Assembly (NCBI RefSeq): GCF_002443295.1
Contig: NZ_BAOS01000004.1
Location: forward strand, 310,001-374,000
Source of the DNA: Candidatus Scalindua japonica
Lineage (GTDB): Bacteria > Planctomycetota > Brocadiia > Brocadiales > Scalinduaceae
Length of the DNA: 64,000 nt
Direction: 5' to 3'
Of this stretch, positions 20,246-60,561 are shown in pieces; within the stretch, counting starts at the first letter, position 1, and every line of letters starts with the position of its first letter. Both the position numbers and the translations under genes were made by a program. The notes beneath the pieces are model-generated. The model had not been told where the DNA came from and did not search any database. It saw nothing but the letters and a program-made list of their open reading frames with translations.

Positions 20246-21565
20246 ATGAAAAGCGATAAAGAGAAAAACATTTTTGCGTGGTATATGTACGACTGGGCTA
20301 ATTCCGCATTTGCGACAACTGTTATCGCTGCCCTTTTGCCTCTATACTTTGCTACAGTTATTGTCCCCTCAGAAGGATGGACCTTCCGTTCCTTCAGCAT
20401 TGAAATACATACTAATGCTACCACCCTTTGGGCTTTTCTCTCAGGCACCACTGCACTCATTGTATTCATAACAGCCCCTTTCCTGGGGGCTATTGCGGAT
20501 ATTTCAGAATCTAAGAAGAAGTTTTTAATGACTTTCTGCTTTGGTGGCAGCCTGTTTACTACACTTCTTTTTTTCAGCCGCAAAGGAGATGTGTGGATGA
20601 CTATGGTTTTTTTCTTCCTGGCTAATACCTGTTTTATCAGCGCAAACATTTTCTATAATGCTTTTCTACCTCACATAGCATCCAGGGAGGAGATTGATCA
20701 GGTTTCCGGGAGAGGCTATGCTTATGGATACCTCGGAGGCGGGCTACAGTTCTTAATCTGCATAATTTTAATTCTTGCCCACAATAAAATCGGTATTGAA
20801 AAAACAATAGCGGTGAGAACAAGCCTCTTATTTTCAGGAATCTGGTGGGCAGGTTTTTCAATATTTGCACTTACCTGGTTGCGCGAACCTGTGGGTAACA
20901 AAATACATTCTCAACAACATGGGGAAGAGAAAAGGTCAATTACCTATTATATAAAACTCGGTATATCTCGAACATGGTATACTATTTCAAGTGCCAGAAG
21001 GCATCGTAACCTTACTGTTTTTCTGATAGCTTTCATGTTCTATAATGATGGTATACATACGGTAATCAGGATGGCAACTATTTATGGAAAGGATGAGCTG
21101 GCACTTAATAATCAAACCCTTATGGGTACCCTTTTACTGGTACAGTTTATCGGTATTGGAGGTGCGCTTTTATTCAGCAGAATTTCAAAAACTTTTGGTA
21201 CCAAAAGAATATTAATTCTCGCCATGTTTCTCTGGCTGGGTATCCTGTGCTACGCATATATTATAACCAGCACACTTGACTTCTGGATATTGGGGATTGC
21301 AGTAGGCCTGGTATTGGGAGGCTCTCAAGCCCTGAGCAGGTCTTTTTATGGATCAATGATTCCAGCAAAGGAATCGGCTGAGTTTTTCGGTTTCTACTCT
21401 GTTTTTGAAAAATTTTCGGCTATATGGGGACCATTTGTCTTCGGTAGTATTCGCCAAATCACTGGTACATCTAGACTTGCCATACTATCACTGGTGGTTT
21501 TCTTTATTATTGGAATCGTACTCTTATACTTTGTGAAAGAGAATAGTAAACCACAGAATCATTGA
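20246..21565 (+). CDS. UMF1/Atg22-type MFS transporter
   Basis: 439 residues with about 11-12 hydrophobic helices. The start FAWYMYDWANSAFATTVIAA is the hallmark of the UMF1 (Atg22-like) branch of the major facilitator superfamily. Further typical stretches are FLGAIADISESKKKFL and GLVLGGSQALSRSFYGSMIP. In yeast Atg22 exports amino acids from the vacuole; bacterial substrates are largely unknown. The gene is single and divergent from the methyltransferase unit. Confidence 0.88.
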   Translation: MKSDKEKNIFAWYMYDWANSAFATTVIAALLPLYFATVIVPSEGWTFRSFSIEIHTNATTLWAFLSGTTALIVFITAPFLGAIADISESKKKFLMTFCFGGSLFTTLLFFSRKGDVWMTMVFFFLANTCFISANIFYNAFLPHIASREEIDQVSGRGYAYGYLGGGLQFLICIILILAHNKIGIEKTIAVRTSLLFSGIWWAGFSIFALTWLREPVGNKIHSQQHGEEKRSITYYIKLGISRTWYTISSARRHRNLTVFLIAFMFYNDGIHTVIRMATIYGKDELALNNQTLMGTLLLVQFIGIGGALLFSRISKTFGTKRILILAMFLWLGILCYAYIITSTLDFWILGIAVGLVLGGSQALSRSFYGSMIPAKESAEFFGFYSVFEKFSAIWGPFVFGSIRQITGTSRLAILSLVVFFIIGIVLLYFVKENSKPQNH

Positions 21566-21798: not shown

Positions 21799-23163
21799 GT
21801 GACTGTAACAATTAAAAATATACCAGGTCAGTTACCAGCATTCTGGGACAGAGATGTTATTTTCTTTGCCAATATGCAATCTATTTTTTACGAAAATCGT
21901 GGTGGATTGGAAAGGCTCAATCGGCTGGTAACTGGTGTAGAAACATATGGAGGGCGTCTTATTCCGATTATTAATCTCGTATTTAAAGGAAATAATAACC
22001 TGCTTGTGTTGGAAAAACCTCCTGACCAATCCCTGATAAGCTATTTTGAAAAAGATCTTGGTTTACATCTTCCAGATATTACCGTATTATCACATTCTAT
22101 TTACGACAATCTTCTCAACCAGTGTGATACATTGATCAATGATGAAACCAGCTCAACTCTGACAATGATCCATCAACATAATGCTAACTGGGTTGACGGA
22201 TTTGTAAGCGATAATATATTAATAAATCTTGCAAAAGCGCTGAAAAAACCGACTATATGCAGTATGGAAGGAAGCAAAAGGGGAAATAATAAATTTCTCT
22301 TACATAATATTCTTCTAGAAAAGGGATTTCCTGTGTTTGATACAATCCCTGCATCATCACCCGATGAAATACCAACATGCATTGCCATGCTGCGTAATAG
22401 AGGATACAAAAAGGCAGCAGTTAAGGCTCAAATTGGAGCATCCGGCATCGGTATAACCAGCCTGTCAACTATTCCTGGTGAAGAAGTGTCTGTCCCGGAA
22501 CACTTTTTTTTTGAAGGTCCCTGCATGGTACAGGGATGGATTGATGAAACCGTTAAAAATATACGTAAAATGGGTTCCCCCAGTATACAGATGTTTCTAG
22601 ATGACAGTTCTCTTTCCCTTTATGATATTACTGAACAGATTCTTAATGCGGATAGTATCCATGAAGGTAATCTCTCACCTCCACCTTATTTCAGCAAAAA
22701 GGACCAGGTATACGAAGAACTGTTTCGACAGGCAGCGGCGGCTGGCTCCTGGCTTCATGAACAGGGATACAGGGGTACGGCAAGTGTTGACTTTCTTGTT
22801 GTCGAACATCGCGGTAATGTGGAAGTCAGAGTATGTGAAATAAATGCTCGAATCACAGGGGCTACGTATCCATCTGTGATAGCAAGACATTTTCTACCAC
22901 ATGATGCCTGGTTAATGAGAAATATACGTTTTGGCATTCCGTTGAGGGATACAAACTTGTTAAAGATACTGGAACAGGCAGGCTATCTTTTTCATCCTGA
23001 CATGCATGAAGGTGTTCTACCTATTAACTTTAATCTTAACGAAGACGGTTGTGTTCAAAAAGGACAGTTTCTGTGCCTTGGAAAAAATCTCAATAGTTGT
23101 CTTCTCATGATAGAAAAGATAGAATCATTGCTCTCTTTTAGCTGGGATTATGATAGAGATTGA
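21799..23163 (+). CDS. ATP-grasp fold ligase of unknown substrate
   Basis: 454 residues, GTG start after a CACAGGA site. The central and C-terminal parts have the ATP-grasp layout: GSKRGNNKFLLHNILLEKGFPV (pre-grasp/linker), KKAAVKAQIGASGIGITSL (phosphate-contacting lysine and glycine loop), and FFFEGPCMVQGWID (adenine-binding hinge). Metal-binding residues lie in RVCEINARITGATYPSVIARH. ATP-grasp ligases join a carboxylate to an amine or thiol by way of an acyl phosphate. The M20 peptidase gene 119 bases downstream is a likely functional partner. I do not recognise the exact subfamily. Confidence 0.8.
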   Translation: MTVTIKNIPGQLPAFWDRDVIFFANMQSIFYENRGGLERLNRLVTGVETYGGRLIPIINLVFKGNNNLLVLEKPPDQSLISYFEKDLGLHLPDITVLSHSIYDNLLNQCDTLINDETSSTLTMIHQHNANWVDGFVSDNILINLAKALKKPTICSMEGSKRGNNKFLLHNILLEKGFPVFDTIPASSPDEIPTCIAMLRNRGYKKAAVKAQIGASGIGITSLSTIPGEEVSVPEHFFFEGPCMVQGWIDETVKNIRKMGSPSIQMFLDDSSLSLYDITEQILNADSIHEGNLSPPPYFSKKDQVYEELFRQAAAAGSWLHEQGYRGTASVDFLVVEHRGNVEVRVCEINARITGATYPSVIARHFLPHDAWLMRNIRFGIPLRDTNLLKILEQAGYLFHPDMHEGVLPINFNLNEDGCVQKGQFLCLGKNLNSCLLMIEKIESLLSFSWDYDRD

Positions 23164-23282
23164 GTAATCCCATATTCTGACAATGTGCCTGATGGTTGAA
23201 GTGTTTAATGTGTCTAAAGTTAAATAAACACTTTCGAATGTTCTAAGACATTATAATTTTAATTATTCAGTTCAGGTAAAAT

Positions 23283-24401
23283 ATGACAAAATTTTCAACA
23301 GATTTAGAAAAAAGGCTTGTCGCTCTTACAAGAGACCTGGTCTTGATACCCAGCGATGAGACGAGACCGGATGATATCGAACGCTGCTTTGAGTTTATAA
23401 TGAATCATTTAGAATCGCTTGATAATATCACTATTAAAAAGTATCGTCATTGTGATACCACCTCTTTAGTAGTTCTTCCAAAAAATGTGAACAGTCCTAA
23501 GGTCCTTCTCTGCACACACCTTGATGTTATAACTCATCCTGACCCTCATAGTTATCGCTCACATATATCTGATGGCAGGATAATCGGACCGGGATCAGGA
23601 GATATGAAAGGCCCTCTCGCAATCGTCCTTGAGGTCTTCATGAATTTACATATGAAATACGATCACCTTTCACTAGGCCTGGTAATTACATCTGATGAAG
23701 AGCGTGGAGGAGAAGCGGGAATGCGTTTTCTTTTTGATGAATTAGGAATCAGATGTGAAGTTGCTCTGGTGCCGGACGGTGGGTCTCTGAATGAAATAAC
23801 TGTTGAAGAGAAAGGAATTCTTCATTTAAAAATACAGTGCCATGGACATGCTGCACACGCGGCCCGTCCATGGCTGGGAGACAATCCTCTTGAAAGACTC
23901 GTAAACTCTGTTTCACGCCTGAAGAATGAGTTTGACGTATTAAATAAAAATGATGACAACTGGAACCCTACCTGCACACTCACAACAATTAAAACACCAA
24001 ATCAATCTGTTAACCGCGTACCTTCAGAGGCTGAAGGTACTCTTGATATACGCCTTCCAGCCCCTTATACGGTAAAAGACACCTTAGGCCATATACGAAG
24101 CTTATTAGGTGATAAAATTGATATACATACTATTGTAAGCGCTGAACCGACACGGTTCATACCTGATCCTCTCTACATTTCAATTGCTGAGGAGATAACA
24201 GGAAAACCTACTAATCAGAAAAGAGAAGATGGAGGAAGTGATGCGCGTTTTATTGGACGTTATAATATTCCGGTTATTATTTCCAGACCGATTGTCGGAG
24301 AACTACATTCTCTTGATGAGTGGATAGATATAAGATCAATGCAGACGTTTTATCAAATATATGAACTTTATCTGAAACGTAAACTACTTTCAAAGGACTG
24401 A
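23283..24401 (+). CDS. M20-family zinc peptidase/deacylase (ArgE/DapE/CPG2-like)
   Basis: 372 residues. The di-zinc ligands appear in order: His and Asp in LCTHLDVITH, the bridging Asp in GPGSGDMKGPLA, Glu pair in TSDEERGGEAGM, Asp/Glu position in LVPDGGSLNE, and the last His in VGELHSLDEWI. The dimerisation domain sits in the middle (HGHAAHAARPWLGDNPLERL). The family removes acyl or peptidyl groups from amino acids (ArgE, DapE, LysK, CPG2). The threonine in THLDV, where most have GHxDV, is a small oddity. It probably works with the ATP-grasp ligase upstream, for example in making and unmasking a protected intermediate; this is inference. Confidence 0.85.
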   Translation: MTKFSTDLEKRLVALTRDLVLIPSDETRPDDIERCFEFIMNHLESLDNITIKKYRHCDTTSLVVLPKNVNSPKVLLCTHLDVITHPDPHSYRSHISDGRIIGPGSGDMKGPLAIVLEVFMNLHMKYDHLSLGLVITSDEERGGEAGMRFLFDELGIRCEVALVPDGGSLNEITVEEKGILHLKIQCHGHAAHAARPWLGDNPLERLVNSVSRLKNEFDVLNKNDDNWNPTCTLTTIKTPNQSVNRVPSEAEGTLDIRLPAPYTVKDTLGHIRSLLGDKIDIHTIVSAEPTRFIPDPLYISIAEEITGKPTNQKREDGGSDARFIGRYNIPVIISRPIVGELHSLDEWIDIRSMQTFYQIYELYLKRKLLSKD

Positions 24402-44447: not shown

Positions 44448-46058
44448 ATGGCTACATCATCACTAGTTGCAGGAATATCAGGTTTAAAAACATCTCAAAC
44501 ATCACTGAATGTAATCGGAGATAATCTGGCAAATTTGAACACATCAGGCTTTAAGACATCCCGTGTAAATTTTGCTAATGAGCTGTCGCAGACTATGAGG
44601 TCAGCTCTGGCACCTTCGGGTGGGCTGGGCGGAAGAAACCCGATACAGATAGGCACCGGTACGACAATTTCGAGTATTGACAAAGACTTCTCTCAGGGCA
44701 ATATGTCACCTACAGGGCGTCCTCTTGACCTTGGGATACAGGGTGATGGGTTTTTCATGCTTACAAACGATTTCCAGGATTTCTACTCCAGAGTAGGTGC
44801 TTTCAGTATGGACAAGAACAACGATCTTGTTGATTCCGGTACCGGCCTGAGAGTAAAAGGCGTTTCCGGAAGCGCTATAAATATTCCTGTTAATGCAACG
44901 CTGTCCGGAAAAGCCACAACGAAAACTTCTTTATCCGGAAATTTGAATTCTGAATTTAATACTGGAGCAATTAATCACATTCTCAAAACCGACAGCCCGT
45001 TTCAATCTGGAGCTGTCGCCGCTACGGCCGCGACAGCCTTAAATGCACTCGACAACAATACAGCAAACTATATTGCAGGTGACAAGATTGATATAACTGG
45101 CACAGAGCATAAGGGTATCGATATTAGCAAAAGCTTTATTTACGGAAGCGGCGCGGGACAAGACGGCACAACACTGGGTGACCTTAGTACATTTATTAAC
45201 TCAAATTTTGGAACAGCATCTACAACAATTGACGCATCCGGAGATTTGTTACTCACAGCAACACCATCAGGTCATTCAGAACTGACATTAAACATAGCCG
45301 ACGCAACAGGAAATACAGGTGGTACAAGCTTTAGTAATTTTAATATTAATACTACTGGAACCGGAGATGGGTACGTTACCACAATTCCTATATTTGATAC
45401 CCAGGGCTCTTCTCGTCTTGTTACGCTATCATTTGAGAAAACCGCCAGTAACACGTGGGACATGGTAGCAACCATGAAACCCAGCGAAGGATCAGTTACT
45501 GATGCTATTTCAGCAATAAACTTTAACAATGACGGCTCATACTCTTCAATTACAGGGACATCAACTATTACAATAACCTATCCGGACAATACAACACAGA
45601 CAGTAAACCTTGAGTTAGGCACACCAAATACACTTGATGGTTTAACTCAATTTGGCAGTGCTTCATCGGCTGCTTCAATTGACCAGGACGGACATGAGGA
45701 AGGGTTTTTCTCTACCACAACCGTAAACCAGGACGGAAATGTGGTAGCTTTATTTACTAATGGTAAAACAAAAAATGTTGGACAGCTTCAATTAGCAACC
45801 TTCAGCAATCCTTCCGGTTTATCAACAGAAGGTAACAATCTTTTGTCTCCAACCCTGGCTTCCGGCGCAGCTGTTCTTAAAACAGCACAATCCGGAAGAG
45901 TTGGTAGTATACTCAGTGGCGTATTAGAATCTTCCAATGTTGATATAGCAGAAGAGTTCACAAAACTAATTGTATCCCAGAGATCTTTTCAGGCAAATTC
46001 ACGAACAATAACAACAACTGATGAAATAATGCAAGAGTTGGTTAATATCGTAAGGTAA
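44448..46058 (+). CDS. flgE: flagellar hook protein
   Basis: 536 residues. The N-terminal rod/hook helix is GISGLKTSQTSLNVIGDNLANLNTSG in the usual form (core NVIGDNLANLNT). A TTISSIDKDFSQGNMSPTGR region and LDLGIQGDGFFML follow. The C-terminus has GVLESSNVDIAEEFTKLIVS and QRSFQANSRTITTTDEIM. The variable middle is large. The start lies 9 bases after AAAGGAG. A 435-base gap follows, so flgF onward seems to be a new unit. Confidence 0.95.
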   Translation: MATSSLVAGISGLKTSQTSLNVIGDNLANLNTSGFKTSRVNFANELSQTMRSALAPSGGLGGRNPIQIGTGTTISSIDKDFSQGNMSPTGRPLDLGIQGDGFFMLTNDFQDFYSRVGAFSMDKNNDLVDSGTGLRVKGVSGSAINIPVNATLSGKATTKTSLSGNLNSEFNTGAINHILKTDSPFQSGAVAATAATALNALDNNTANYIAGDKIDITGTEHKGIDISKSFIYGSGAGQDGTTLGDLSTFINSNFGTASTTIDASGDLLLTATPSGHSELTLNIADATGNTGGTSFSNFNINTTGTGDGYVTTIPIFDTQGSSRLVTLSFEKTASNTWDMVATMKPSEGSVTDAISAINFNNDGSYSSITGTSTITITYPDNTTQTVNLELGTPNTLDGLTQFGSASSAASIDQDGHEEGFFSTTTVNQDGNVVALFTNGKTKNVGQLQLATFSNPSGLSTEGNNLLSPTLASGAAVLKTAQSGRVGSILSGVLESSNVDIAEEFTKLIVSQRSFQANSRTITTTDEIMQELVNIVR

Positions 46059-46493
46059 TAATAAGCATGGATTATTGATCTTGGATTGCAGAATGATAAT
46101 TTACAATGTATTCATTCTGCAATCTGAAATCAGAGTTACGAAATTGCATGAGGAATGTTTTTCTACAAATTGTGTAAATTATTATCCAGAAAGTTTATCC
46201 AATTCAAAATACTTACTGAAAACCAATTTTCTTACAAAAACCAGAACCAGCCTAACCATCATCCTGCCAATACGTTAAACCTTTTTGAAAAAAAAGAAAA
46301 ATTAAATATAGTAATAATTATTTTTTGGCATAAAGATAGCGTAGATATAAACGTAATTTATGTTTATAAGAAATATTTTTTGAATCACTAGGTTAATTAC
46401 TAAAGTATTTTCAACATATATAAATCTGATTGTTTATAAGGATAAAGGTGCCTACTATAACACTTTAATGTTTTTTCATAGAAAGGCTGAAAA
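46059..46493. other. gap between flgE and flgF with hairpin and promoter
   Basis: No gene is seen in 435 bases. GATTGCAGAATGA (46084-46096) and TCATTCTGCAATC (46112-46124) form a perfect 13-bp stem with a 15-base loop but no T-tract. The sigma-54-type match at 46325-46341 is listed separately. Confidence 0.5.
46325..46341 (+). promoter_or_regulatory. candidate sigma-54 promoter before flgF
   Basis: TTGGCATAAAGATAGCG has GG at 46327-46328 and GC at 46339-46340 with ten bases between. TTGGCAT is a good -24 element; TAGC is the same -12 variant as before fliK. The leader to flgF would be about 140 bases, longer than for fliK, so confidence is lower. Confidence 0.5.
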
Positions 46494-47213
46494 ATGATTG
46501 ATGGAATTGAGCTGGCAGCTTCCGGTCTGGATGCTTATGCCCATGTACAGGAAGTTATAGCAAGAAATCTAGCTAACGCCAATACTGTCGGTTTTAAAAA
46601 AAATACCATCTCTTTTAAAACTATTCTGACACAAACTGATGATATCGAAACCAGCAACCTGCAGACAAATTATGGAATTGACTATTCTAAAGGTAACCTA
46701 AAGTACACTGGCAATACTTTAGATATTTCAATAGACGGAGACGGTTTTTTTACTTTAGAAACTGAAAATGGAATGAGATATACAAGGAACGGTCAATTTC
46801 GGCTTTCTAATACCAGTGAAATAGTAACCGACTCTGGTGCAAAATTGTTAGGACTAAATGGTCCCATACAATTGCCGAAAGACGGCGGAGAAATAGTAAT
46901 AGACAACGCCGGTATAATCAAAGTAAATGATAAGCAGGTAGGAAAGTTAATGATTACAAACTTTAATGACCTGAGCAAGGTTTTGCCGACAGGAAACTCT
47001 ACATTCATAGCGCCTTTAGACGCGATAGATGAGGAAGGAGAAAAAAAGTTCAAGGTTGCGCAGGGTTATTTGGAAGGTTCAAATGTTAGCGTAGTCACGG
47101 AAATGGTTGATATGATAACTAACATGAGGAGTTATGAAGCGAGCAATAGTGTAGTCAAAAATTTCAGTGATATGATGGAACGATTAATATCCAATCAATC
47201 TAATATCGTATAA
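46494..47213 (+). CDS. flgF: flagellar basal-body rod protein FlgF-type
   Basis: 239 residues. N-terminal GLDAYAHVQEVIARNLANANTVGFKK carries the rod-protein helix (core IARNLANANTVGFK). LDISIDGDGFFTLE and the end QGYLEGSNVSVVTEMVDMIT follow. It directly precedes flgG and is smaller than FlgG here. The exact split between FlgF and FlgG paralogues rests on order and length. Spacing to flgG is 34 bases. Confidence 0.85.
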   Translation: MIDGIELAASGLDAYAHVQEVIARNLANANTVGFKKNTISFKTILTQTDDIETSNLQTNYGIDYSKGNLKYTGNTLDISIDGDGFFTLETENGMRYTRNGQFRLSNTSEIVTDSGAKLLGLNGPIQLPKDGGEIVIDNAGIIKVNDKQVGKLMITNFNDLSKVLPTGNSTFIAPLDAIDEEGEKKFKVAQGYLEGSNVSVVTEMVDMITNMRSYEASNSVVKNFSDMMERLISNQSNIV

Positions 47214-47247
47214 AGAGACAATTTTTTGGTGAAGGAGACAATAAATT

Positions 47248-48030
47248 ATGATGAAAGCATTGTACACAAGTGCAACAGGTATGAAAGCGCACCAGTTCCT
47301 TCTTGATGTAATTTCAAATAATCTAGCCAATGTGAATACTACGGGATACAAAAGAGTACAAGCAAATTTTCAAGACTTATTATATGACAAGTTTGTACCT
47401 GCAGGCACGGAATCAGCCCAGGGAATACAATCACCTACCGGTCTTCAGGTTGGTAGTGGTGTGAGAATTGTGGCGACAAATAAGGTCTTCTCTCAAGGTG
47501 TTCAAGAGAATACCGGCAGATCACTTGATTGGGCAATACAAGGTGACGGTTTTTTTCAGATTACACACCCGGATGGAACTATCGTTTACTCACGAGATGG
47601 TACATTTCAGCTAAATAGTACCGGGGAAATAGTTAACTCCGAAGGTCTTAAAATTGAACCGTCAACAACTGTTCCAAGCGACGCGGTAAGTATAAATATT
47701 GGATCTGACGGCACGCTTTCCGCCCAGAATGCAGATGGCAGTACTCAAGCTATAGGCAATATAACTCTTGCCACATTTCTCAACCCGTCTGGACTTGAAA
47801 GCCTGGGGAAAAACCTTTACAGAGAAACAACAGCATCCGGTACTCCGCAGACAGGTACACCTGGCCAGAATGGTGTTGGAGAGATCATACAGGGGTTTCG
47901 AGAAAGTTCAAATGTTGAGGTTGTAACTGAGTTGGTAAACCTCATTGTTGCGCAAAGGGCTTATGAAACAAGCGCAAAAGCCATCAAAGCCAGCGATGAT
48001 ATGCTGCAAGCTACAAACCGTATTGTTTAG
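47248..48030 (+). CDS. flgG: flagellar distal rod protein
   Basis: 260 residues, close to the conserved length of FlgG. It has KALYTSATGMKAHQFLLDVI, NNLANVNTTGYKR, the FlgG-type NTGRSLDWAIQGDGFFQI, and the end GFRESSNVEVVTELVNLIVA and AYETSAKAIKASDDM. It builds the distal rod that passes the P- and L-rings encoded downstream. A GAAGGAGAC site precedes the ATG. Confidence 0.95.
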   Translation: MMKALYTSATGMKAHQFLLDVISNNLANVNTTGYKRVQANFQDLLYDKFVPAGTESAQGIQSPTGLQVGSGVRIVATNKVFSQGVQENTGRSLDWAIQGDGFFQITHPDGTIVYSRDGTFQLNSTGEIVNSEGLKIEPSTTVPSDAVSINIGSDGTLSAQNADGSTQAIGNITLATFLNPSGLESLGKNLYRETTASGTPQTGTPGQNGVGEIIQGFRESSNVEVVTELVNLIVAQRAYETSAKAIKASDDMLQATNRIV

Positions 48031-48077
48031 CAATAAATGACACTTTATTATTATACTTTATCTTCAGGAGCACATTA

Positions 48078-49049
48078 ATGAGATACAGAATAACCATATT
48101 TTCGCTATTTATTATGTTTGTATTCTTGCCTGGCACATTTGCGGGCATGATTGAAATACATCTGATGGAAAAAATTGTCTTGAAAGATAAAGTGATAACC
48201 GTCAGTGATATCTCTACCGTTACCGGCGATGATCCAGGCCTGGTAAAGAAAGTCATGGGTATTGAAATTGGAAACACTCCTGGAGCAAACTGCGAAAGAA
48301 GAATAGACTTAAACTTTATTAGAATGCGATTAATATCTTCAAATGTGAATATTGAGAATGTAACCTTTACTAATTCTCAATCAACATTGGTTTCTGTAGA
48401 ATCTACAAAAATTAAGGGCCTTGAGATTGTACAGAAAGCAAAAGAATATCTATTAGAATTCTTACCAATGGATGACAGGGAAACTACAGTTGAAGTCGGA
48501 AGAGTCCCAACCGACCAGTGGGTACCAAGCAAAAGAGATAATATTGATTTTTTTATTACACTTGTAGACACGACCAAGGACAGAGGAAAAATTGAGTTAA
48601 TTGTCAGCGCCTCTTCAGAGGGCAAGCGTTTTTTCAAAGTACCGGTATATTTTAACGTCAGAGTTTTTGAATTCGTAGCTGTTGCAAAAAAGAAAATCAG
48701 GCGAAATCAATCATTAACTAAAGAAAATGTAATTTTGACGCGACGTGAAACCACAAGAACACGAGGCATGTCGTTTAGCAGCATTGATGATTTGAAAGGC
48801 ATGATTACCACAACATCAGTGCAACCACGCATTATACTTACTGAACATATGGTGGAAACACCACCAACATTGAAACAGGGAAGCATTGTAAAATTAATTG
48901 TTAAAAAGAGCGGTTTTAAGATTGTTACAAAAGGCTTAGCGCAACAAACAGGGTATAAAGGAGATGTTATTAAAGTCAGGAATATAAACTCAAAGAAAAT
49001 AATTTATGGTCAAATTATAAACCACGACAGTGTTCAGGTAATTTTTTAA
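48078..49049 (+). CDS. flgA: flagellar P-ring assembly chaperone
   Basis: 323 residues with a signal peptide (RITIFSLFIMFVFLPGTFAG). The C-terminal two-thirds has the SAF-domain pattern: VAVAKKKIRRNQSLTKENVI, MITTTSVQPRIILTEHMVE and QGSIVKLIVKKSGFKIVTKG. FlgA is a periplasmic chaperone for FlgI, encoded downstream. The N-terminal 150 residues (VSDISTVTGDDPGLVKKVMG) are longer than in enteric FlgA. It is spaced 47 bases from flgG and 27 from flgH. Confidence 0.9.
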   Translation: MRYRITIFSLFIMFVFLPGTFAGMIEIHLMEKIVLKDKVITVSDISTVTGDDPGLVKKVMGIEIGNTPGANCERRIDLNFIRMRLISSNVNIENVTFTNSQSTLVSVESTKIKGLEIVQKAKEYLLEFLPMDDRETTVEVGRVPTDQWVPSKRDNIDFFITLVDTTKDRGKIELIVSASSEGKRFFKVPVYFNVRVFEFVAVAKKKIRRNQSLTKENVILTRRETTRTRGMSFSSIDDLKGMITTTSVQPRIILTEHMVETPPTLKQGSIVKLIVKKSGFKIVTKGLAQQTGYKGDVIKVRNINSKKIIYGQIINHDSVQVIF

Positions 49050-49076
49050 TAAATTTTAATTACAAAAGAGATATTT

Positions 49077-49739
49077 ATGACAAGACAATACACAAAACTC
49101 ATTCTTAATATTATGATAACTACAGGTATGCTGGCAGTAGTGTGTGACAATATCCATGCTGATTCCCTATGGCAAAAGAGAGTTACTATAAATTATAATC
49201 TTTTTGATGATAATAGAGGTAAAAGAGTCGGTGATATTGTTACCGTAGTTGTCTCCGAATCAACAGCTATTGCTAATGATGAGAATGCAACTACAAACAA
49301 TTCCAGCTCAAATGCCGGGTCAGTTGATTACAACAAATTCATGCGTGGAGTTTTAAGTGCGTTGAGAACAGGACGTAACGCAAAGTTCACAGATAGGGAA
49401 GCCAATACTTTCTCCAATTCATATAACAGTGATTTCAGTGGTAAAGGCTCTTATGACAGCACAAGGAGTGTAAATCTGAATATAACTGCAATGGTTGTGG
49501 AAGTGCTGGATAATGGTAATCTTGCTCTTGAAGGAAAAAGGGATATAGCAGTAAATAAAGAGACGTATACCCTGAAACTCACAGGTATCGCAAGGCCAAT
49601 TGATATAAGTCCTGAGAATTTAATATCATCAAGCAAGATGTCTAACGTGATTTTCGACCTTTCCGGAAAAGGCTGGTTAACAAGAGCAGGATCTAAAGGC
49701 TGGTTCAATAGAGTGAAAGATGTGCTTTGGCCATTCTAG
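49077..49739 (+). CDS. flgH: flagellar L-ring protein
   Basis: 220 residues. The core is GDIVTVVVSESTAIANDENA, SGKGSYDSTRSVNLNITAMV, LALEGKRDIAVNKETYTLKL and GIARPIDISPENLISSSKM. FlgH forms the outer-membrane L-ring. Enteric FlgH is a lipoprotein; here the signal peptide ends near CDNIHADS and the only cysteine (VVCDN) lacks the Gly/Ala before it, so a lipid anchor is uncertain. A 330-base gap separates it from flgI. Confidence 0.93.
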   Translation: MTRQYTKLILNIMITTGMLAVVCDNIHADSLWQKRVTINYNLFDDNRGKRVGDIVTVVVSESTAIANDENATTNNSSSNAGSVDYNKFMRGVLSALRTGRNAKFTDREANTFSNSYNSDFSGKGSYDSTRSVNLNITAMVVEVLDNGNLALEGKRDIAVNKETYTLKLTGIARPIDISPENLISSSKMSNVIFDLSGKGWLTRAGSKGWFNRVKDVLWPF

Positions 49740-50071
49740 GTTTCTATGGATTTAGTATTAATACAGGTAACAAACTAATCTCTGTACAAGCCAGTCGACC
49801 AAAACCTTGGTACATCCATCTTTAATACAATAACGGTCCTGTGACTTCATTAAAAAATAACGTCTATAGGAAAATATCGACATGATGTGTAATATTTGAC
49901 TACTAATCTTTCGGGCATATTAACAGATGACAATTAACAATCTCATAAACCTTTTAAAAACAGAGTATTAGTGTTATTAAGAAATAATTTGCTTTTGGTA
50001 CAAGTATTGCTTTAATAAGGACAGATCCAGTACTACATTAATAATTTTAATCAGGCTAAAAGGACAAATTC
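49740..50071. other. gap between flgH and flgI, holds a promoter
   Basis: No gene is seen. The only clear signal is the sigma-54-type promoter at 49995-50011, listed separately. Confidence 0.5.
49995..50011 (+). promoter_or_regulatory. sigma-54 promoter for flgI and following genes
   Basis: TTTGGTACAAGTATTGCTT has GG at 49997-49998 and GC at 50009-50010 with ten bases between. The -12 element TTGCT is perfect and the -24 element differs at one base (TGGTAC). A start near 50022 leaves about 50 bases to the flgI ATG at 50072, the same distance as for fliK. Confidence 0.72.
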
Positions 50072-51193
50072 ATGCTTCGCTATATTTTTTACACTCTTAT
50101 TTTAACTGCAACCTGTACCTTTTCAGCTATAACGTCTGCACATGGAAGCATAACCACTCGTATTAAAGACATCGCAAGCGTACAGGGTGTGCGGGACAAC
50201 TATTTATTTGGCTATGGCCTCGTTATCGGTTTAATGGGATCAGGAGACAAAATTGATTTTACAAAGCAGCTGGCGAAGAATGTATTTGAAAAACTTGGTG
50301 TAATTTTAACCACTACCGATTTCAGTTCTAAAAATATTGCAGGTGTGCTGGTAACAGCTAATATTCGCCCTTTTGCGAAACCAGGTGATAGAATGGATGT
50401 ACTCGTTTCATCAATAGGTGATGCCAAAAGCCTGGAAGGTGGAGTTCTTGTACACACTACCCTCCAGGGAATTGACAATGAAGTATATGCGGTTGCACAA
50501 GGGCCAATATCTCTCGGAGGTGGTTTTAATGTTGGAGGAAAGGCTGGAGACAAGAGAAAAAATATAGCAACAACCGGCAACGTACCGCAAGGCGCAATGG
50601 TTGAAAAAGAGATTCCTGTTCATCTGTTTCATGAAAATACAATCAAATTGAGCCTGAAAGATACTGATTTTACAACGGCTACACGTTTGATGAATGTTAT
50701 CAACGTTATATACCCGAATTCAGCACAGGCAGTTAGTGCCGCGGAGGTTGAAATTAAACCTCCGCCGGAATTCAGAAATATGGAAAGAATAACCCAGTTT
50801 ATATCTAAAATTGAAGAATTACCGATTACACCGGATACTTTAGCAAGAGTGGTCATTAACGAAAGGACCGGAACAATTGTCGCGGGAGAAAACGTTAAGA
50901 TTTCTACGGTTGCAGTTGCGCATGGCAGCCTCACAATCACTATAAGCGAAAATACAGAAGCTTCTCAACCGGGTGCATTTGCCCCTAGCAGTGCGGAGAC
51001 CAAAGAGCTTGATCGCACAACTATTGATGTTGAAGAGGAGGAGGCAAAACTACACATAATACCTGATGGAGTAAGTATTTCAGAAATAGCGCGCGCGCTG
51101 AATGTCCTTGGGGTGACACCAAGGGATCTCATGGCAATCTTCCAGGCCATTCATAAGGCTGGTGCTCTCCATGCAGAACTTATAATTATGTAA
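50072..51193 (+). CDS. flgI: flagellar P-ring protein
   Basis: 373 residues, the normal length, with a signal peptide ending near SAHGSI. Motifs: RIKDIASVQGVRDNYLFGYG, LVIGLMGSGDKI, VRPF-like NIRPFAKPGDRMDVLVSSIG, EVYAVAQGPISLGGG and RVVINERTGTIVAGENVKIS. The C-terminal GVTPRDLMAIFQAIHKAGAL closes the family profile. It forms the peptidoglycan-level ring around the rod. It starts the second half of the cluster and is followed by flgJ after 21 bases. Confidence 0.96.
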   Translation: MLRYIFYTLILTATCTFSAITSAHGSITTRIKDIASVQGVRDNYLFGYGLVIGLMGSGDKIDFTKQLAKNVFEKLGVILTTTDFSSKNIAGVLVTANIRPFAKPGDRMDVLVSSIGDAKSLEGGVLVHTTLQGIDNEVYAVAQGPISLGGGFNVGGKAGDKRKNIATTGNVPQGAMVEKEIPVHLFHENTIKLSLKDTDFTTATRLMNVINVIYPNSAQAVSAAEVEIKPPPEFRNMERITQFISKIEELPITPDTLARVVINERTGTIVAGENVKISTVAVAHGSLTITISENTEASQPGAFAPSSAETKELDRTTIDVEEEEAKLHIIPDGVSISEIARALNVLGVTPRDLMAIFQAIHKAGALHAELIIM

Positions 51194-51214
51194 CATTAAT
51201 CTGAGGAAGTTATA

Positions 51215-51547
51215 ATGAAAATACCATCCAACAGTGAGTTCATGATAAATGTTGCAAAAACGGATAAATCATTAAATGTATTAAAAAATAATCCTGAATC
51301 CTCACAGGAGATTCAAAAAGCTGCCCAGGATTTTGAAGCAGTGCTACTGAATATGGTCCTTAAAGCAATGTGGAAGACAATACCTGAATCTGATTTATTT
51401 GAAAAAAATAATGCATCTAAAATATACGAGGGATTTATGCACACATCGCTTTCAGAAGAGATGGCCGGTAACGGTGGTTTAGGAATAGCAAAAGTACTTG
51501 CTCAACAACTTAGCAGAGAACACAAAAATCATAACGTAATCAAATGA
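51215..51547 (+). CDS. flgJ: FlgJ-type rod-binding protein without muramidase domain
   Basis: 110 residues with the FlgJ N-terminal core: IQKAAQDFEAVLLNMVLKAMW, FEKNNASKIYEGFMHTSLSE and NGGLGIAKVLAQQLSR. The peptidoglycan hydrolase domain of enteric FlgJ is absent, as in many bacteria, so another hydrolase must open the wall. Its stop overlaps the start of the next gene (ATGA). Confidence 0.9.
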   Translation: MKIPSNSEFMINVAKTDKSLNVLKNNPESSQEIQKAAQDFEAVLLNMVLKAMWKTIPESDLFEKNNASKIYEGFMHTSLSEEMAGNGGLGIAKVLAQQLSREHKNHNVIK

Positions 51548-52059
51548 AAAATAATATCTTGGAAAATCTTCTAGAAAACCTTTCAGAAACATTAGACAGG
51601 ATGGTCCTTCTGTATAATGAAATATTTCTAACTGCTCAGAAGAAACAGGAATATATTATTTCCGGAGACATAGATAAACTTGAATCAACAATTTATCAAG
51701 AGCGCAACCAGGCAGAAACAATACTTCTACTCGAAGAAAAGAGAAGATATTTATTGCGCTCAATAAATCAAACTATTGGAAGCAATAATAACTCTATAAA
51801 ACTCAGTGTGCTTATTGAACAGCTGCGAGAACCATATAAGAGTAAATTTAAAGAGCAGTTTGACACTATCGTTGAAATTGTTATCAAAGTTGAAGGAATA
51901 AATAAAACGAACACAACGCTGACTAAACATTCACTTGAATATATAAACAACCTTATAAAATATATATGTACCGAATCATTAAACGACAATACCTATCAAC
52001 AAACCGGCAAACTTAAAGAGCCTGAGCTGAATCGAATATTGTTTGAAATTAACGCTTAA
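51544..52059 (+). CDS. flgN: FlgN-like export chaperone
   Basis: 171 residues, all helical, charged, with a start overlapping flgJ by four bases. A first helix LLENLSETLDRMVLLYNEIFL and SGDIDKLESTIYQERNQAET are typical of FlgN. FlgN proteins keep the hook-filament junction proteins FlgK and FlgL soluble for export; both are encoded directly downstream, which supports the call although sequence conservation in this family is low. Confidence 0.78.
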   Translation: MKNNILENLLENLSETLDRMVLLYNEIFLTAQKKQEYIISGDIDKLESTIYQERNQAETILLLEEKRRYLLRSINQTIGSNNNSIKLSVLIEQLREPYKSKFKEQFDTIVEIVIKVEGINKTNTTLTKHSLEYINNLIKYICTESLNDNTYQQTGKLKEPELNRILFEINA

Positions 52060-52158
52060 ACAAATGAATAAACCCGCTGAACCAACTGGACAAGTAAATA
52101 ATACCAGATTTTACACACTGAAGTTAACATTTGAAAATACTACTACAGGAAGATAACT

Positions 52159-54336
52159 ATGGCTTCATCAGATATTTCAATCGGATTATCAGGACTGCTC
52201 ACTGCACAAAGTGCCCTTCAGACAATTGGGCATAATATTGTCAATGCCAACACTCCCGGGTACAGCAGACAACAAGTTTTAGTGTCTGCCAGAACCCCAG
52301 ATGTTATGTCATTCGGGCCTATTGGTTCAGGAGTAACGGTTGACAATATCCAGAGAATTAAAGACGACCTTTTAAGCTCTCAAATAAACAGCTTCACATC
52401 TCTTCTGGGAAATGCAGAAGTACAAAATGAATCACTCCGGAACATAGAAGCTATTTTTAATGAATTGTCGGGGACCAGTTTAAACGGTATGTTAGAGAAA
52501 TTTTTCAGAAGTGTACAGGAATTGTCAACTACTCCTGAACTCGTCAGCACAAGATACCAATTGTTACAAGATGCTCAAAACCTTGTTACCCATAGCTTTC
52601 GTTCACTTGACGAACAATTCAGTAACCTGAAGGTCAATATCAGTGAGAGAATAGAATCAAAGGTTGCTAATTTAAATAGCATAACGAGTGAAATTTCATT
52701 CTTAAACAGAAGAATTAATGACATTGAGTTAGGTGCAGATAATACCAGTGCAAATGACATGCTGGACAAAAGAGATCAACTTTTAACAAAACTAAGCAAA
52801 TTGGGTGATATCAAAGTAATAAAAAATAAAAACGACAGTTCTGTTGATGTTCTTCTTGGCGGAACATTGGTTGTAAACAGAAATAGAACAGAGAAAATCA
52901 CAACAAGTTTAGCAGGTGAGGGTGTTAGAAAAGTCCATGGATTATCAATAGCGGGTTTAAACAGTGGTGAGTTAAAAGGTCTGATGAATATGCAGAATGT
53001 AACTATACCTAAATATATGCAGGATATTGATACTCTTGCCGCCAGTTTTATCAAGGAAGTTAACAATGTTCACAGTGAAGGAGTTGGGCTGAGTGGAGGG
53101 TTTAGTACTCTAGCAAGTATAAATGCGGTTGATGATAGTAATTCCCCATTAACAAACGCAGAGCTTCCTTATTCACCCTCAGTCAATACATATTCTACGG
53201 GTACTGTAACAAGCTCAGATAATGGAGATGGAACTACTACAGTCACTGGAGTTGGTACAACTTTTAAAGTTAATGTAAAAGCAAATGATTGGATCAAACT
53301 TAACGATGGAAATGTCTATAAAATCACATCAGTTGATAGTAATTCTAAACTGACTGTAAGTGGTGCATATACCGATGCGGTACCTGCTGCAACCAATATA
53401 ACTGATGGCAGTCTGTATATAACGGTCACAGACTCATCAAATGCAATCACGAAAACCAATATAAATATTGCTGCGGATGAAACACTAAATACCCTCTCTG
53501 CAAAAATTGGAAATATTGCTAATATCAATGCCAATGTTACAAATGGCATTTTGACAATTACTTCAGACAGTGGATATACCTTTAATTTTACAAACGAACT
53601 GGACGTCAATCCTGGAACAATTGGTTCCGCACAATCCACTCTTTCCGGTCATTACTCAGGCAACGACAATGATGTTTTCACATTGACTGTTGTTGACGCA
53701 GGGACCGGAACAGTAGGGTCAGGCTCTGCTTTAATAAGAGCAACAGATGCAAATGGTAAATTAATAGCAAATCTTGAAGTTGGGACGTCATATGATGCCG
53801 GAAGCTATTTACAGATAACGGATGGTGTATCTATAAGTTTTGACAATGGCAGTATAGCAGTTGGTGACAAACTGGCTTTTGACGTCACTAACGACCCGGA
53901 CACTAGCAACGTTTTAAGCGCACTGGGATTGAATACATTTTTTGAAGGAAATGACGCGTCATCAATTGATGTGGCACAATATATCAAAGACGATGTGACC
54001 AGAATTGCAGCTGCTTCAACCAGTTCACCGGGAGATAACACAAACGCCCTCAGACTGGTAAACTTACGAAATCAAACATTAACAAAGGACGCAACCTTCA
54101 GCGACTTTATACACGGTTCCATATCTCAATTAGGAATAGAAACTGCGGAAAGGGCCAGTGAAACAAACAGCTTCAAATCATTGCTTACTAATTTAGACAG
54201 CCGACGTCAGGAAGTATCCGGGGTTTCAATTGATGAAGAAATGGTAAATACTATCAGATTCCAGCAGGCATTTCAGGCTTCTGCAAAATATCTTTCTACT
54301 ATCAAAGAAGTAAGTGACTTGCTTATGCAGTTGTAA
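52159..54336 (+). CDS. flgK: flagellar hook-filament junction protein 1
   Basis: 725 residues. N-terminal ISIGLSGLLTAQSALQTIGH and NIVNANTPGYSRQ, then LDKRDQLLTKLSKLGDIKV, and the C-terminal GVSIDEEMVNTIRFQQAFQA with SAKYLSTIKEVSDLLM. The middle (about 350-600) holds a long Asp/Gly/Thr-rich insertion, so the protein is longer than the 550-residue enteric form. It joins hook and filament together with FlgL. An AGGAAGA site lies just before the ATG. Confidence 0.96.
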   Translation: MASSDISIGLSGLLTAQSALQTIGHNIVNANTPGYSRQQVLVSARTPDVMSFGPIGSGVTVDNIQRIKDDLLSSQINSFTSLLGNAEVQNESLRNIEAIFNELSGTSLNGMLEKFFRSVQELSTTPELVSTRYQLLQDAQNLVTHSFRSLDEQFSNLKVNISERIESKVANLNSITSEISFLNRRINDIELGADNTSANDMLDKRDQLLTKLSKLGDIKVIKNKNDSSVDVLLGGTLVVNRNRTEKITTSLAGEGVRKVHGLSIAGLNSGELKGLMNMQNVTIPKYMQDIDTLAASFIKEVNNVHSEGVGLSGGFSTLASINAVDDSNSPLTNAELPYSPSVNTYSTGTVTSSDNGDGTTTVTGVGTTFKVNVKANDWIKLNDGNVYKITSVDSNSKLTVSGAYTDAVPAATNITDGSLYITVTDSSNAITKTNINIAADETLNTLSAKIGNIANINANVTNGILTITSDSGYTFNFTNELDVNPGTIGSAQSTLSGHYSGNDNDVFTLTVVDAGTGTVGSGSALIRATDANGKLIANLEVGTSYDAGSYLQITDGVSISFDNGSIAVGDKLAFDVTNDPDTSNVLSALGLNTFFEGNDASSIDVAQYIKDDVTRIAAASTSSPGDNTNALRLVNLRNQTLTKDATFSDFIHGSISQLGIETAERASETNSFKSLLTNLDSRRQEVSGVSIDEEMVNTIRFQQAFQASAKYLSTIKEVSDLLMQL

Positions 54337-57445: not shown

Positions 57446-57808
57446 ATGAACAATATGCTGACTGAGGGAGAAACATTATTTGCTGATGGTAAAATTAATG
57501 AAGCAGAGGAGTGTTTTGTGTTTCTGATAGAACATGACTCCTACTGTAAGGAAGCCTACAATAATCTTGGCGTAATTGCATTCCAGAAGGATGATAAAGT
57601 GAAAGCTATTGATTATTTTACCAGGTCTCTGGAAATTGACCCTCTTTACAGAGATACTATTGTAAATTATACCAACCTACTCATATCATTAGATCAACCA
57701 CAGATAGCTATTCCCTTACTGGAAAAAGTTGTGGAGCTAAACCCGGAAGACAAAGAAACCAAACAACTTCTGGATGACATTCGTCATCTTCATCCAACAA
57801 ATATTTAA
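57446..57808 (+). CDS. short TPR protein, paralogue of the N-terminus of the next gene
   Basis: 120 residues with three TPR units. It is clearly duplicated from or into the first 110 residues of the next gene: shared [24 protein letters not shown] and [17 protein letters not shown]. The stop TAA shares its last A with the ATG of the next gene, so translation is likely coupled. A AGGAGAG site precedes the ATG. It may act as a separate subunit of the large enzyme. Confidence 0.85.
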   Translation: MNNMLTEGETLFADGKINEAEECFVFLIEHDSYCKEAYNNLGVIAFQKDDKVKAIDYFTRSLEIDPLYRDTIVNYTNLLISLDQPQIAIPLLEKVVELNPEDKETKQLLDDIRHLHPTNI

Positions 57809-60561
57809 TGAATAATAAACTTAAAGAAGGCGAAATATTATTTGCAGATGGTAAGATTGAAGGTGCAGAACAGTGTTTTTTATCTCTGGTAGAAAACGAC
57901 TCTGAATGTAAAGAGGCCTATAACAATCTTGGCGTAATTGCTTTCCAAAATAATGATAAAGAGAAAGCCATTGATTATTTTACCAGATCTCTGGAAATTG
58001 ACCCCCTTTACAGAGATGCTGTCTTAAACTATACAAGCTTACTTAGAACACATGACCAACTTCACATAGCAGCTCACCTGTTAGAGAAGATAGCAGAGAT
58101 AAGACCAGACGATGGAGAGATCACACAGCTTCTAGAAGAAATTCGAACTACCTCCCAAATCAGACTCAAAATTGCTATACTCTGTCTTCCTGGATATGAG
58201 TCCTTTCTTCCGGACATTGTTAACCATCTTAAAGCAAGATACGATGTACAAACTTGTTATACAAATAATGAACAGGAAATTAAGGCATCAGTTGAATGGG
58301 CTGATATTGTATGGCTTGAATTTGGAAACGATATATCTGTTTATGTTACAAAGAAAGTATCCGCAATTCAGAACAAGACAGTTGTCTGCAGAATACACAG
58401 CTATGAAGTTCTGCAAGGTTACTTATCAAATATCGATTTTACAAAGATCGATGTGGCTGTTTTCGTAGCAGACCACGTAAGAGATATTGCATTTGAAACA
58501 TATCCCTCCATTAAAAATGAAACGAAAACACTTGTTATACAAAACGGCGTTAATCTTGCACAGTTTTCATATTTAGAAAGAACACCTGGTTTTAATCTTG
58601 CAGTCGTTGGAGACATCAACAATAAAAAAAATCCAGCAATGTGGATTGAAATCATGAGCAGACTCGTAAGCATAAACACTCAATACACACTTAATGTTGC
58701 AGGAAACATTCAGGAACTGCGCTACAAATATTATTTAGAAAATATTATTAACAGATTGGGCCTCGAAAGAAATATTAAATTCCATAGCAGAGTAGAAGAC
58801 ATACCTGAGTGGTTTGAAAGAGAGCGAATTAACTATCTTCTGACTACCAGCGTTTTTGAATCATTCGGTTATTCAATAGCAGAAGCTATGGCGATGGGTT
58901 ATAAACCATTGATTCACAACTTTCCAGGCGGATATGACAACTGGCCATCAAATTGCATATTCAGTACTACAGATGAGCTAATAAATTTAATACAGAATGG
59001 TAACAATTATGACTCTAAAGGATATCATGATTTCGTAAAGGACAGATATTCATTGAATGTGCAATTCGATAAAATTGACATGGTGTTAAACAATTTGACA
59101 AACAAGGATTCTAGACAGGCTACCAGAGTTTTTTCAGAAAAACAAAATATCAGCACTGGAAAAGATGTTGCTTCTCCCGGTATAACATCACATACCAGTA
59201 ACCTTCACAAACCTGACAGGAATTTAATTGTCACAGGTATACCAAGAAGCGGAAGCAGCCTTTTCTCCGTCTTGATAAATAGTATTGAAAATGCAGTCTG
59301 CCTGAATGAAATTGTTTATGATGTTCACAAATTACCATATGCTTTTGAAGAAATAAGAAAACGTCTCGTTTTCAAAACCCCCATACCTAATAAATATGAT
59401 AGCAGAGGTGTATTAACCAGCAATACTCAAGATGGTATCGTAAAAATTGAAGAGAGAGTAGTTGAAATAGTTGATGATAATGTTGTTGTCGGTTCCAAAG
59501 TCAATATTCCGTACCTGAACGATATCAGGAAAATTTTAGACTACGGCTACAAGATTATAGCAGTAGTCAGAGATCCTGTATTTACCATAGGAAGTTGGAA
59601 TAGTAAAAAAACAAGTCATTTGGATGAAGCACGAGTTACCGGAAGCATCATGTCCCCACGCTGGGCCCATATACCATTTACAACAGGAGAAAAGATTGGA
59701 CGCCAGGCGCAAATATGGGAGTTTTATGCCGAAATAATATGGAGCTTACGTAATAGAATTAAGATTTACACATACGAACAGGTGATTTCAAACACAGAGT
59801 GGATTCTAAAAGATGTATGTGAATATCTTGGATTGAATGTGCCTGTAAAGATAGAACCCCTTGAAAGTCTGAACAAAGTATCCAGATATCCTGATATTGC
59901 TGAAATCAGGGAAGCAGTAAAACAGTACTGTCCGATCAGCAGGGAATTTGGATACCATCTTTACCGTAGTAACAACGGCCCATACAAACCTCAGGAATAT
60001 TGGGAAAATCGAGGGACTGATTATGAGGTTGATACAAAAAGTTATAATTCCGACATAGAAATACCAACTCTGGGAAGACTACTTGAAGAATACAACCTGC
60101 ATGATTCAGCAATACTTGAAGTCGGTTCTGGTTACGGAAGGATCTATCAGGAAGTTGGTATGAAATGTAGCAATTATACCATGTGTGATTTTTCAAACTC
60201 TATGCGAAGTGAGTGTAAAAAGAGAACAGGCATTCTCCCTGATTATTGGAACGGTCACAAATTGCCATATCCTGATAATAGTTTCGATCTGGTTATTCTT
60301 TTTTCAGTCCTTCTGCATGTACCTGAAAAACAAATTGAGTCTTTTTTTTCTGAAATATGCAGAGTAACAAAAGAATATATTTTTATAGCCACATACACGG
60401 GGAATTTGGAAAATCTCGACACTCATGTTTTCAAGTATAATTACAATACATTATTTATCAACTATGAACTGGAAATAACTTTTGAGAAAAAAATTAACAA
60501 TGGCCTGAGAACTAACTGGTTACTTGAAAAACAGATTCAAAGGCCAGGATATTGTAAATAA
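57808..60561 (+). CDS. multidomain TPR - glycosyltransferase - sulfotransferase - methyltransferase protein
   Basis: 917 residues. Residues 1-110 are TPRs. About 120-430 is a GT-B glycosyltransferase ([18 protein letters not shown], later [20 protein letters not shown], the nucleotide-sugar binding E-x7-E type region). About 470-720 is a sulfotransferase with the PAPS 5'-phosphate loop [15 protein letters not shown] and a VVRDP-type 3'-phosphate site ([17 protein letters not shown]). About 760-900 is a SAM methyltransferase ([30 protein letters not shown]). It could build, sulfate and methylate one glycan. Position after csrA and TPR genes suggests flagellar or surface glycan work; this is inference. 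The last few codons run into foreign DNA of an ACR3 fragment, so the native C-terminus may be altered. Confidence 0.85.

Follow-up and report, generated by a model that had tools for sequence, protein, structure and literature searches.

Why does a marine anammox bacterium keep a gene for an ATP-grasp ligase next to a gene for an M20 hydrolase, and could the two enzymes serve one purpose? The genes lie in a stretch of 64,000 nucleotides (the window) from the 4.8 Mb genome (G000) of a Candidatus Scalindua species (Planctomycetota). A preliminary description of this DNA had placed the two open reading frames on the same strand, 119 bases apart, and had identified their products as an ATP-grasp ligase and an M20 deacylase. 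We confirmed the coordinates (Table 1), and the assignments to the ATP-grasp and M20 types are supported by fold, profile homology and Pfam matches.

Table 1. Features of the ligase-M20 locus, in window coordinates
Feature	Position	Strand	Description
ATP-grasp ligase gene	21799..23163	+	454 aa, GTG start; probably divergent PGM1/BesA type (predicted)
ligase Lys209	22423..22425	+	motif VKAQIGASG; invariant in 22/22 aligned sequences
ligase E347-I-N349-A-R351	22837..22851	+	ExNxR motif; E, N and R invariant in 22/22
intergenic spacer	23164..23282	+	119 bases; RNA fold stability no better than chance (z -0.47)
M20 di-metal peptidase gene	23283..24401	+	372 aa, ATG start; closest solved structure 2rb7
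peptidase His79	23517..23519	+	metal ligand by homology; invariant in 22/22
peptidase Asp165	23775..23777	+	invariant in 22/22; Glu in DapE (5vo3), Asp in 2rb7
peptidase His342	24306..24308	+	metal ligand by homology; invariant in 22/22

Simple Nei-Gojobori counts between Scalindua orthologues gave dN/dS values of ~0.10-0.15 for the ligase (four pairs) and 0.09-0.17 for the peptidase (five pairs). Values so far below 1, combined with conservation of gene order and strand across phyla (see below), place the gene pair beyond chance. The window contains no tRNA or Rfam match, and the region shows no excess of promoter-like sites (11 versus 10.3 in shuffled sequence) or terminator-like sites (2 versus 2.0). 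An Atg22-like MFS gene (window 20246-21565; Pfam 4e-80) lies on the same strand with the ligase 233 bases downstream of it, a closeness that is not conserved in other Scalindua. Elsewhere in the window of this anammox genome are a run of flagellar genes (44448-54333; FlgE/F/G-type, ChapFlgA, FlgI and FlgK by Pfam) and a single 917-residue chain (57808-60561) with TPR, glycosyltransferase group 1 and methyltransferase domains.

The ligase and the M20 protein

Judged by the Pfam matches of its family, its predicted fold and a profile comparison with the PGM1 family, gene 1 is an ATP-grasp enzyme. The query itself stayed below the Pfam cut-offs, with ATP-grasp_3 and PreAtp-grasp at E ~0.007-0.008 (for PreAtp-grasp, PF18604, 17.4 bits against a cut-off of 27.5), and the PF18604 matches of the Scalindua ligases were all under the cut-off. 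Among 14 aligned family members, 13 matched ATP-grasp_3 (best 3e-5), 11 matched PreAtp-grasp weakly and one matched PGM1_C (PF18105). A sequence search of solved structures with the ligase gave nothing significant (best E 0.19). The AF2 model (pLDDT 85.9, pTM 0.88) matched ATP-grasp ligases at Z 27-32 across 360-395 residues. The top solved fold was 3wvq (Z 31.9, 386 residues aligned, 2.8 Å, 17% identity), with 3wvr at Z 31.7; we take these two entries to be PGM1, the pheganomycin ATP-grasp peptide ligase. A Streptomyces ATP-grasp peptide ligase (8ynd, Z 30.8; 8ynq, Z 29.5) and BesA (8yi6, Z 27.4, 395 residues aligned, 17% identity) also scored highly; 7r8p was next after BesA (Z 26.2), and PurK (Z 22.2 downward) and PylC trailed at about 22 and below.

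Profile comparison aligned the ligase over 360 columns (96.9% probability, E 1.3e-10) with a PGM1-family protein from the same order (genome G021) that itself exceeds the PF18604 cut-off, and the ligase-family profile matched five of seven PGM1-family loci. Because the family cut-offs are not reached, we call the ligase a divergent relative of PGM1 rather than a member; predicted fold and full-length profile homology indicate that it is probably an amide ligase of divergent PGM1/BesA type. K209, the glycine-rich loop G213-A-S-G216, E347, N349 and R351 are all invariant in 22 of 22 sequences. Lys209 presumably binds ATP as in other ATP-grasp enzymes, and we take ExNxR to be the ATP-grasp Mg/ATP motif. 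K165 is present in 21 of the 22, the exception being the damaged RBC_AMX3 gene. No relative turned up on viral contigs, and a viral fold library returned generic ATP-grasp proteins only.

The M20 assignment of gene 2 is clear (Pfam E 1e-20, above cut-off), with both the catalytic domain (PF01546, 74.9 bits) and the dimerisation domain (PF07687, 59.5 bits) over the Pfam cut-offs. The closest solved relative is 2rb7 from Desulfovibrio desulfuricans G20 (profile E 3e-60, 30% identity; Z 39.0 to a model with pLDDT 90.7), for which we found no published function. The next folds are 3pfo (Z 37.1) and DapE (Z 36.3, 24% identity), with carnosinase CN2 at Z 33.0 and LysK at Z 32.4. By sequence, DapE (5vo3) was matched at E 1.8e-30, and the best NCBIfam model was of DapE type (E 9.7e-44), but its scores fall far under the DapE cut-offs (150 versus 381, 122.5 versus 284 and 101.5 versus 361.8 bits). 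The NCBIfam model for [LysW]-lysine hydrolase (LysK) gave 53.8 bits against a cut-off of 363.

The residues of the di-metal site and the catalytic Glu (H79, D107, E139, E140, D165 and H342) are invariant in 22 of 22 sequences. At the variable (fourth) metal ligand the protein has Asp, the residue of the dipeptidase/aminopeptidase subtype: a review of M20 enzymes citing Lindner et al. (PMC6271292, in excerpt) gives Asp for proven aminopeptidases and dipeptidases and Glu for aminoacylases and carboxypeptidases. Mainly because of Asp165 and this rule, the predicted specificity of gene 2 leans toward a dipeptidase or aminopeptidase over a deacylase. Against such a specificity, the protein is nearer overall to DapE than to CN2 or LysK in sequence and fold. 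A second M20 protein of the same genome (L100), which is DapE/ArgE-like, has Asp in what appears by eye to be the same motif, so Asp is apparently not peculiar to the M20 family of the pair.

Linkage and loss across genomes

Within the order, 13 of 17 genomes of the Scalindua family carry the ligase, against 0 of 42 genomes outside that family. An M20 gene follows directly downstream on the same strand at all 13 loci, four of which have one damaged gene. It is likewise directly downstream at all 12 ligase loci in other planctomycetes, in Verrucomicrobiota and in a Binatia-like order. Seven distant ligases with 47-50% identity came from a survey of named genomes, each with M20 directly downstream: three are in genomes titled Binatia, Deltaproteobacteria and Proteobacteria, which all belong to one order, and four in Kiritimatiellae, Verrucomicrobiia, Verrucomicrobiales and Phycisphaeraceae. 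Five strong matches in a 392-genome sample comprised four in the Scalindua family and one in an extra planctomycete, with M20; five in a 288-genome sample comprised one already known and four in extra Verrucomicrobiota, all with M20. We set aside five weak matches in the 392-genome sample (G108, G222, G247, G286 and G368; E 6e-5 to 8e-4 over 50-80 residues) as other ATP-grasp proteins.

The ligase-M20 unit is rare but widespread, since carriers are few in the genome samples yet spread over distant groups. That the two genes adjoin in such distantly related bacteria suggests a unit of two genes that has not been studied; identical order and strand at 25 of 25 ligase loci rule out chance neighbours. 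The preliminary description had drawn a functional link between the genes, to be checked by their pairing in other genomes and abandoned if no conserved linkage emerged. Linkage is kept across phyla, and the adjacency at all 25 loci supports that link. The M20 subfamily of the pair was detected in 2 of 294 Planctomycetota genomes (E 1e-45), both of which carry the ligase, and the M20 type in none of 12 searched genomes from the order's other families (E 1e-60). Other PGM1-family loci of Planctomycetota (in G021 and in 6 of 343 genomes) showed no M20 gene in the seven stretches fetched, one of which sits at a contig end; the M20 link therefore appears special to the ligase subfamily of the pair.

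With L074 and L073 set aside (the M20 gene of L073 runs off its contig, and this locus was also excluded from the trees), the intergenic gap spans 15-123 bases at the Scalindua loci (11 measured). At ten others it spans -14 to 26 bases, and at five of these ten the two genes overlap according to the start-codon picker used. The ligase and M20 distance matrices correlate with r 0.96 over 22 loci, 0.95 over the 11 non-Scalindua loci and 0.80 over the 11 Scalindua loci, values that have no unrelated-gene control and that common descent alone inflates. FastTree topologies for the two proteins are alike, not identical.

Either gene can outlive its partner. In S. rubra (G014; L019, MAYW01000226.1) the ligase is intact, aligning without gaps to that of S. 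sediminis at 85% nucleotide identity over 1355 bases, whereas the M20 gene is mostly deleted, with ~690 bases swapped for ~150 and the remainder out of frame. The opposite is seen in G005, where M20 is intact and no ligase occurs in the 3.27 kb before it or in the rest of a genome that is 88% complete, and in G002, where the ligase is reduced to its first 67 codons, with an internal stop, just ahead of the M20 start. Damage of other kinds was seen in G013 (codon 16 is an in-frame TGA, and an ATG lies beyond it) and G015 (an internal stop within an apparently frame-shifted stretch). Both genes are absent from G003. In G006 and G011 the M20 gene lies at or near a contig start (and in G006 is split over two frames), which leaves ligase loss undecidable there.

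Loss of both genes at once is what an obligate relay would predict; the observed losses fit better with opposed or separable activities. The opposite single-gene losses of S. rubra and of G005 and G002 are compatible with opposed activities; loss in either direction is also compatible with two genes of separate uses.

Gene neighbourhoods and possible functions

At 23 loci (12 non-Scalindua and 11 Scalindua), ORFs of 80 aa or more include no third family, and no transporter, that recurs with the pair. The three next commonest families (at 11, 9 and 5 non-Scalindua loci) are apparently opposite-strand ORFs over the ligase and M20 genes, an assignment based on one example member per family; a prfA family is common to two non-Scalindua loci. 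Of the neighbours in the window, the MFS, TrxB and FAD-oxidoreductase genes are missing beside the pair in L022-L024 and have other positions in L018. As far as ORFs of 80 aa or more are concerned, this turnover of neighbours rules out a larger conserved operon. Nor are carrier or pathway genes of the LysW system linked to the pair among ORFs of this size, a limit that a small LysW would escape.

PGM1-family genes have other surroundings. In another family of the order (L086:2915-7394; G021:C3), one such ATP-grasp gene lies amid a different ligase-plus-peptidase neighbourhood, flanked (by eye) by a P1/DmpA-type peptidase-like gene and a diaminopimelate-type decarboxylase-like gene, then a pantothenate-synthetase-like gene. 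At L087:5570-8640 and L088:4338-7360, PGM1-family ATP-grasp genes directly follow a gene of 522 residues whose starts are alike in both.

We give a probability of about 0.5 to the reading in which the pair is a make-and-break module, its two predicted reactions converging on one putative dipeptide-like metabolite. The ligase would turn the carboxylate of an amino acid, or of an acid resembling one, into an acyl phosphate and couple the activated acid to an amine on another amino acid or on a short peptide. The di-metal M20 dipeptidase/aminopeptidase would hydrolyse that amide or a close relative, and the cell would thereby build and reclaim a dipeptide-like metabolite. The folds, the conserved catalytic-type residues, the linkage across phyla and the separable losses all argue for such a module, as does the finding that no third gene recurs. 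The preliminary description had likened the pair to both carnosine-type and LysX/LysK-type make-and-unmask steps and had seen no carrier or other gene nearby. That none recurs agrees with its last point, and the invariant Asp165 leans toward the carnosine-type analogy; the LysX/LysK analogy, taken as an obligate relay, is not supported, given that no third gene recurs and given the separable losses in S. rubra, G005 and G002.

A narrower version, in which the module would synthesise and recover a dipeptide-type compatible solute or stress metabolite, is a long shot. For S. rubra, from a Red Sea brine interface, the genome is reported to predict a reliance on as yet unnamed compatible solutes (PMC5486813, in excerpt), and its retention of the synthesis gene with most of the breakdown gene lost would be expected if a solute product is retained. 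Against this, it is a single species, most other marine Scalindua have both genes, and several distant carriers are apparently, from their titles, soil or sediment bacteria.

The separate survival of the two genes also bears on readings in which they act in sequence. BesA acts in a glutamyl-masking pathway, and in an unlikely alternative of this kind the ligase would add a protecting group, enzymes encoded elsewhere would modify the protected compound, and the M20 enzyme would unmask it (LysX/LysK or BesA type). The nearness of the ligase fold to BesA (Z 27.4), the presence of LysK among the M20 fold matches (Z 32.4) and the tight linkage of the genes all agree with masking. Yet a third gene recurs at none of the 23 loci, Asp165 leans away from deacylases, and neither gene is obligate, S. 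rubra having the ligase without most of M20 and G005 having M20 alone; the separate survival of either gene counts against an obligate LysX/LysK-style relay.

We likewise assign a low probability to an arrangement in which both enzymes work in one direction, the M20 enzyme freeing an amino acid or trimming a peptide and the ligase taking up the released amine or peptide. PGM1 acylates the N-termini of peptides (PMC8359417, in excerpt), and the expression of dipeptide and oligopeptide transporters by Scalindua profunda (PMC3655542, in excerpt) would make peptides available; persistence of each gene alone and the lack of a recurrent transporter beside the pair speak against such an arrangement. 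It is quite improbable that the ligase tags the end of a protein or precursor peptide with an amino acid or other acid for the M20 enzyme to remove: other ATP-grasp enzymes do modify peptides and proteins (PMC8939145, in excerpt), as PGM1-type enzymes acylate peptides, but, in the ORFs of 80 aa or more, the surroundings of the pair share neither a precursor peptide nor any other family. Finally, a DapE of the lysine pathway beside an unrelated ligase is very improbable indeed, because the M20 protein, although DapE is its closest characterised family by sequence, scores far under the DapE cut-offs, is of a type missing from the 12 genomes searched in the order's other families, is mostly deleted in S. 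rubra and follows the ligase at 25 of 25 loci.

Significance and comparison with known systems

Each enzyme belongs to a known superfamily; the conserved pair is apparently unreported. No Pfam or NCBIfam match names it, and we found no report of a ligase-M20 pair in the open-licence PMC literature. A paper on E-64 was dismissed as a lead, its 'M20' being a plate reader. A make-and-break module would be an unreported two-gene system for making and breaking an amide in anammox bacteria, Verrucomicrobiota and Binatia-like bacteria, and would point to a small molecule not yet sought. The module is compact enough that two purified enzymes and a panel of amino acids suffice to test it, and it would also suggest what the 2rb7-like M20 peptidases, an orphan group of structural genomics, may do.

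Among known ligases, PGM1 and the enzyme of 8ynd/8ynq resemble gene 1 in fold over most of the chain, with full-length profile homology to a PGM1-family protein; they differ in sequence (17-18% identity only, with Pfam cut-offs not reached), and the seven PGM1-family loci viewed have no M20 gene nearby, unlike the pair. BesA, an L-propargylglycine-L-glutamate ligase, shares the fold; the ligase of the pair differs from it by the NCBIfam BesA model (E 0.036, with a cut-off of 750 bits), and none of the other genes of the BesA pathway recurs beside the pair. Gene 2 resembles the co-catalytic M20 metallopeptidase 2rb7 in having Asp at the variable ligand. DapE, the succinyl-diaminopimelate desuccinylase, shares the M20 fold and metal ligands and has Glu where gene 2 has Asp165.

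Two known systems combine both enzyme types. LysX/LysK, of the LysW lysine pathway, follows the same logic of ATP-grasp ligase and M20 hydrolase. The pair differs from it in two ways: its genes are separable, and among ORFs of 80 aa or more neither a carrier nor any third gene recurs beside them. Carnosine synthase (ATP-grasp) and carnosinase (M20) are animal enzymes without an operon and are only distant relatives of the two proteins, but they make and break one dipeptide (PMC6271292, in excerpt), as the module proposed here would.
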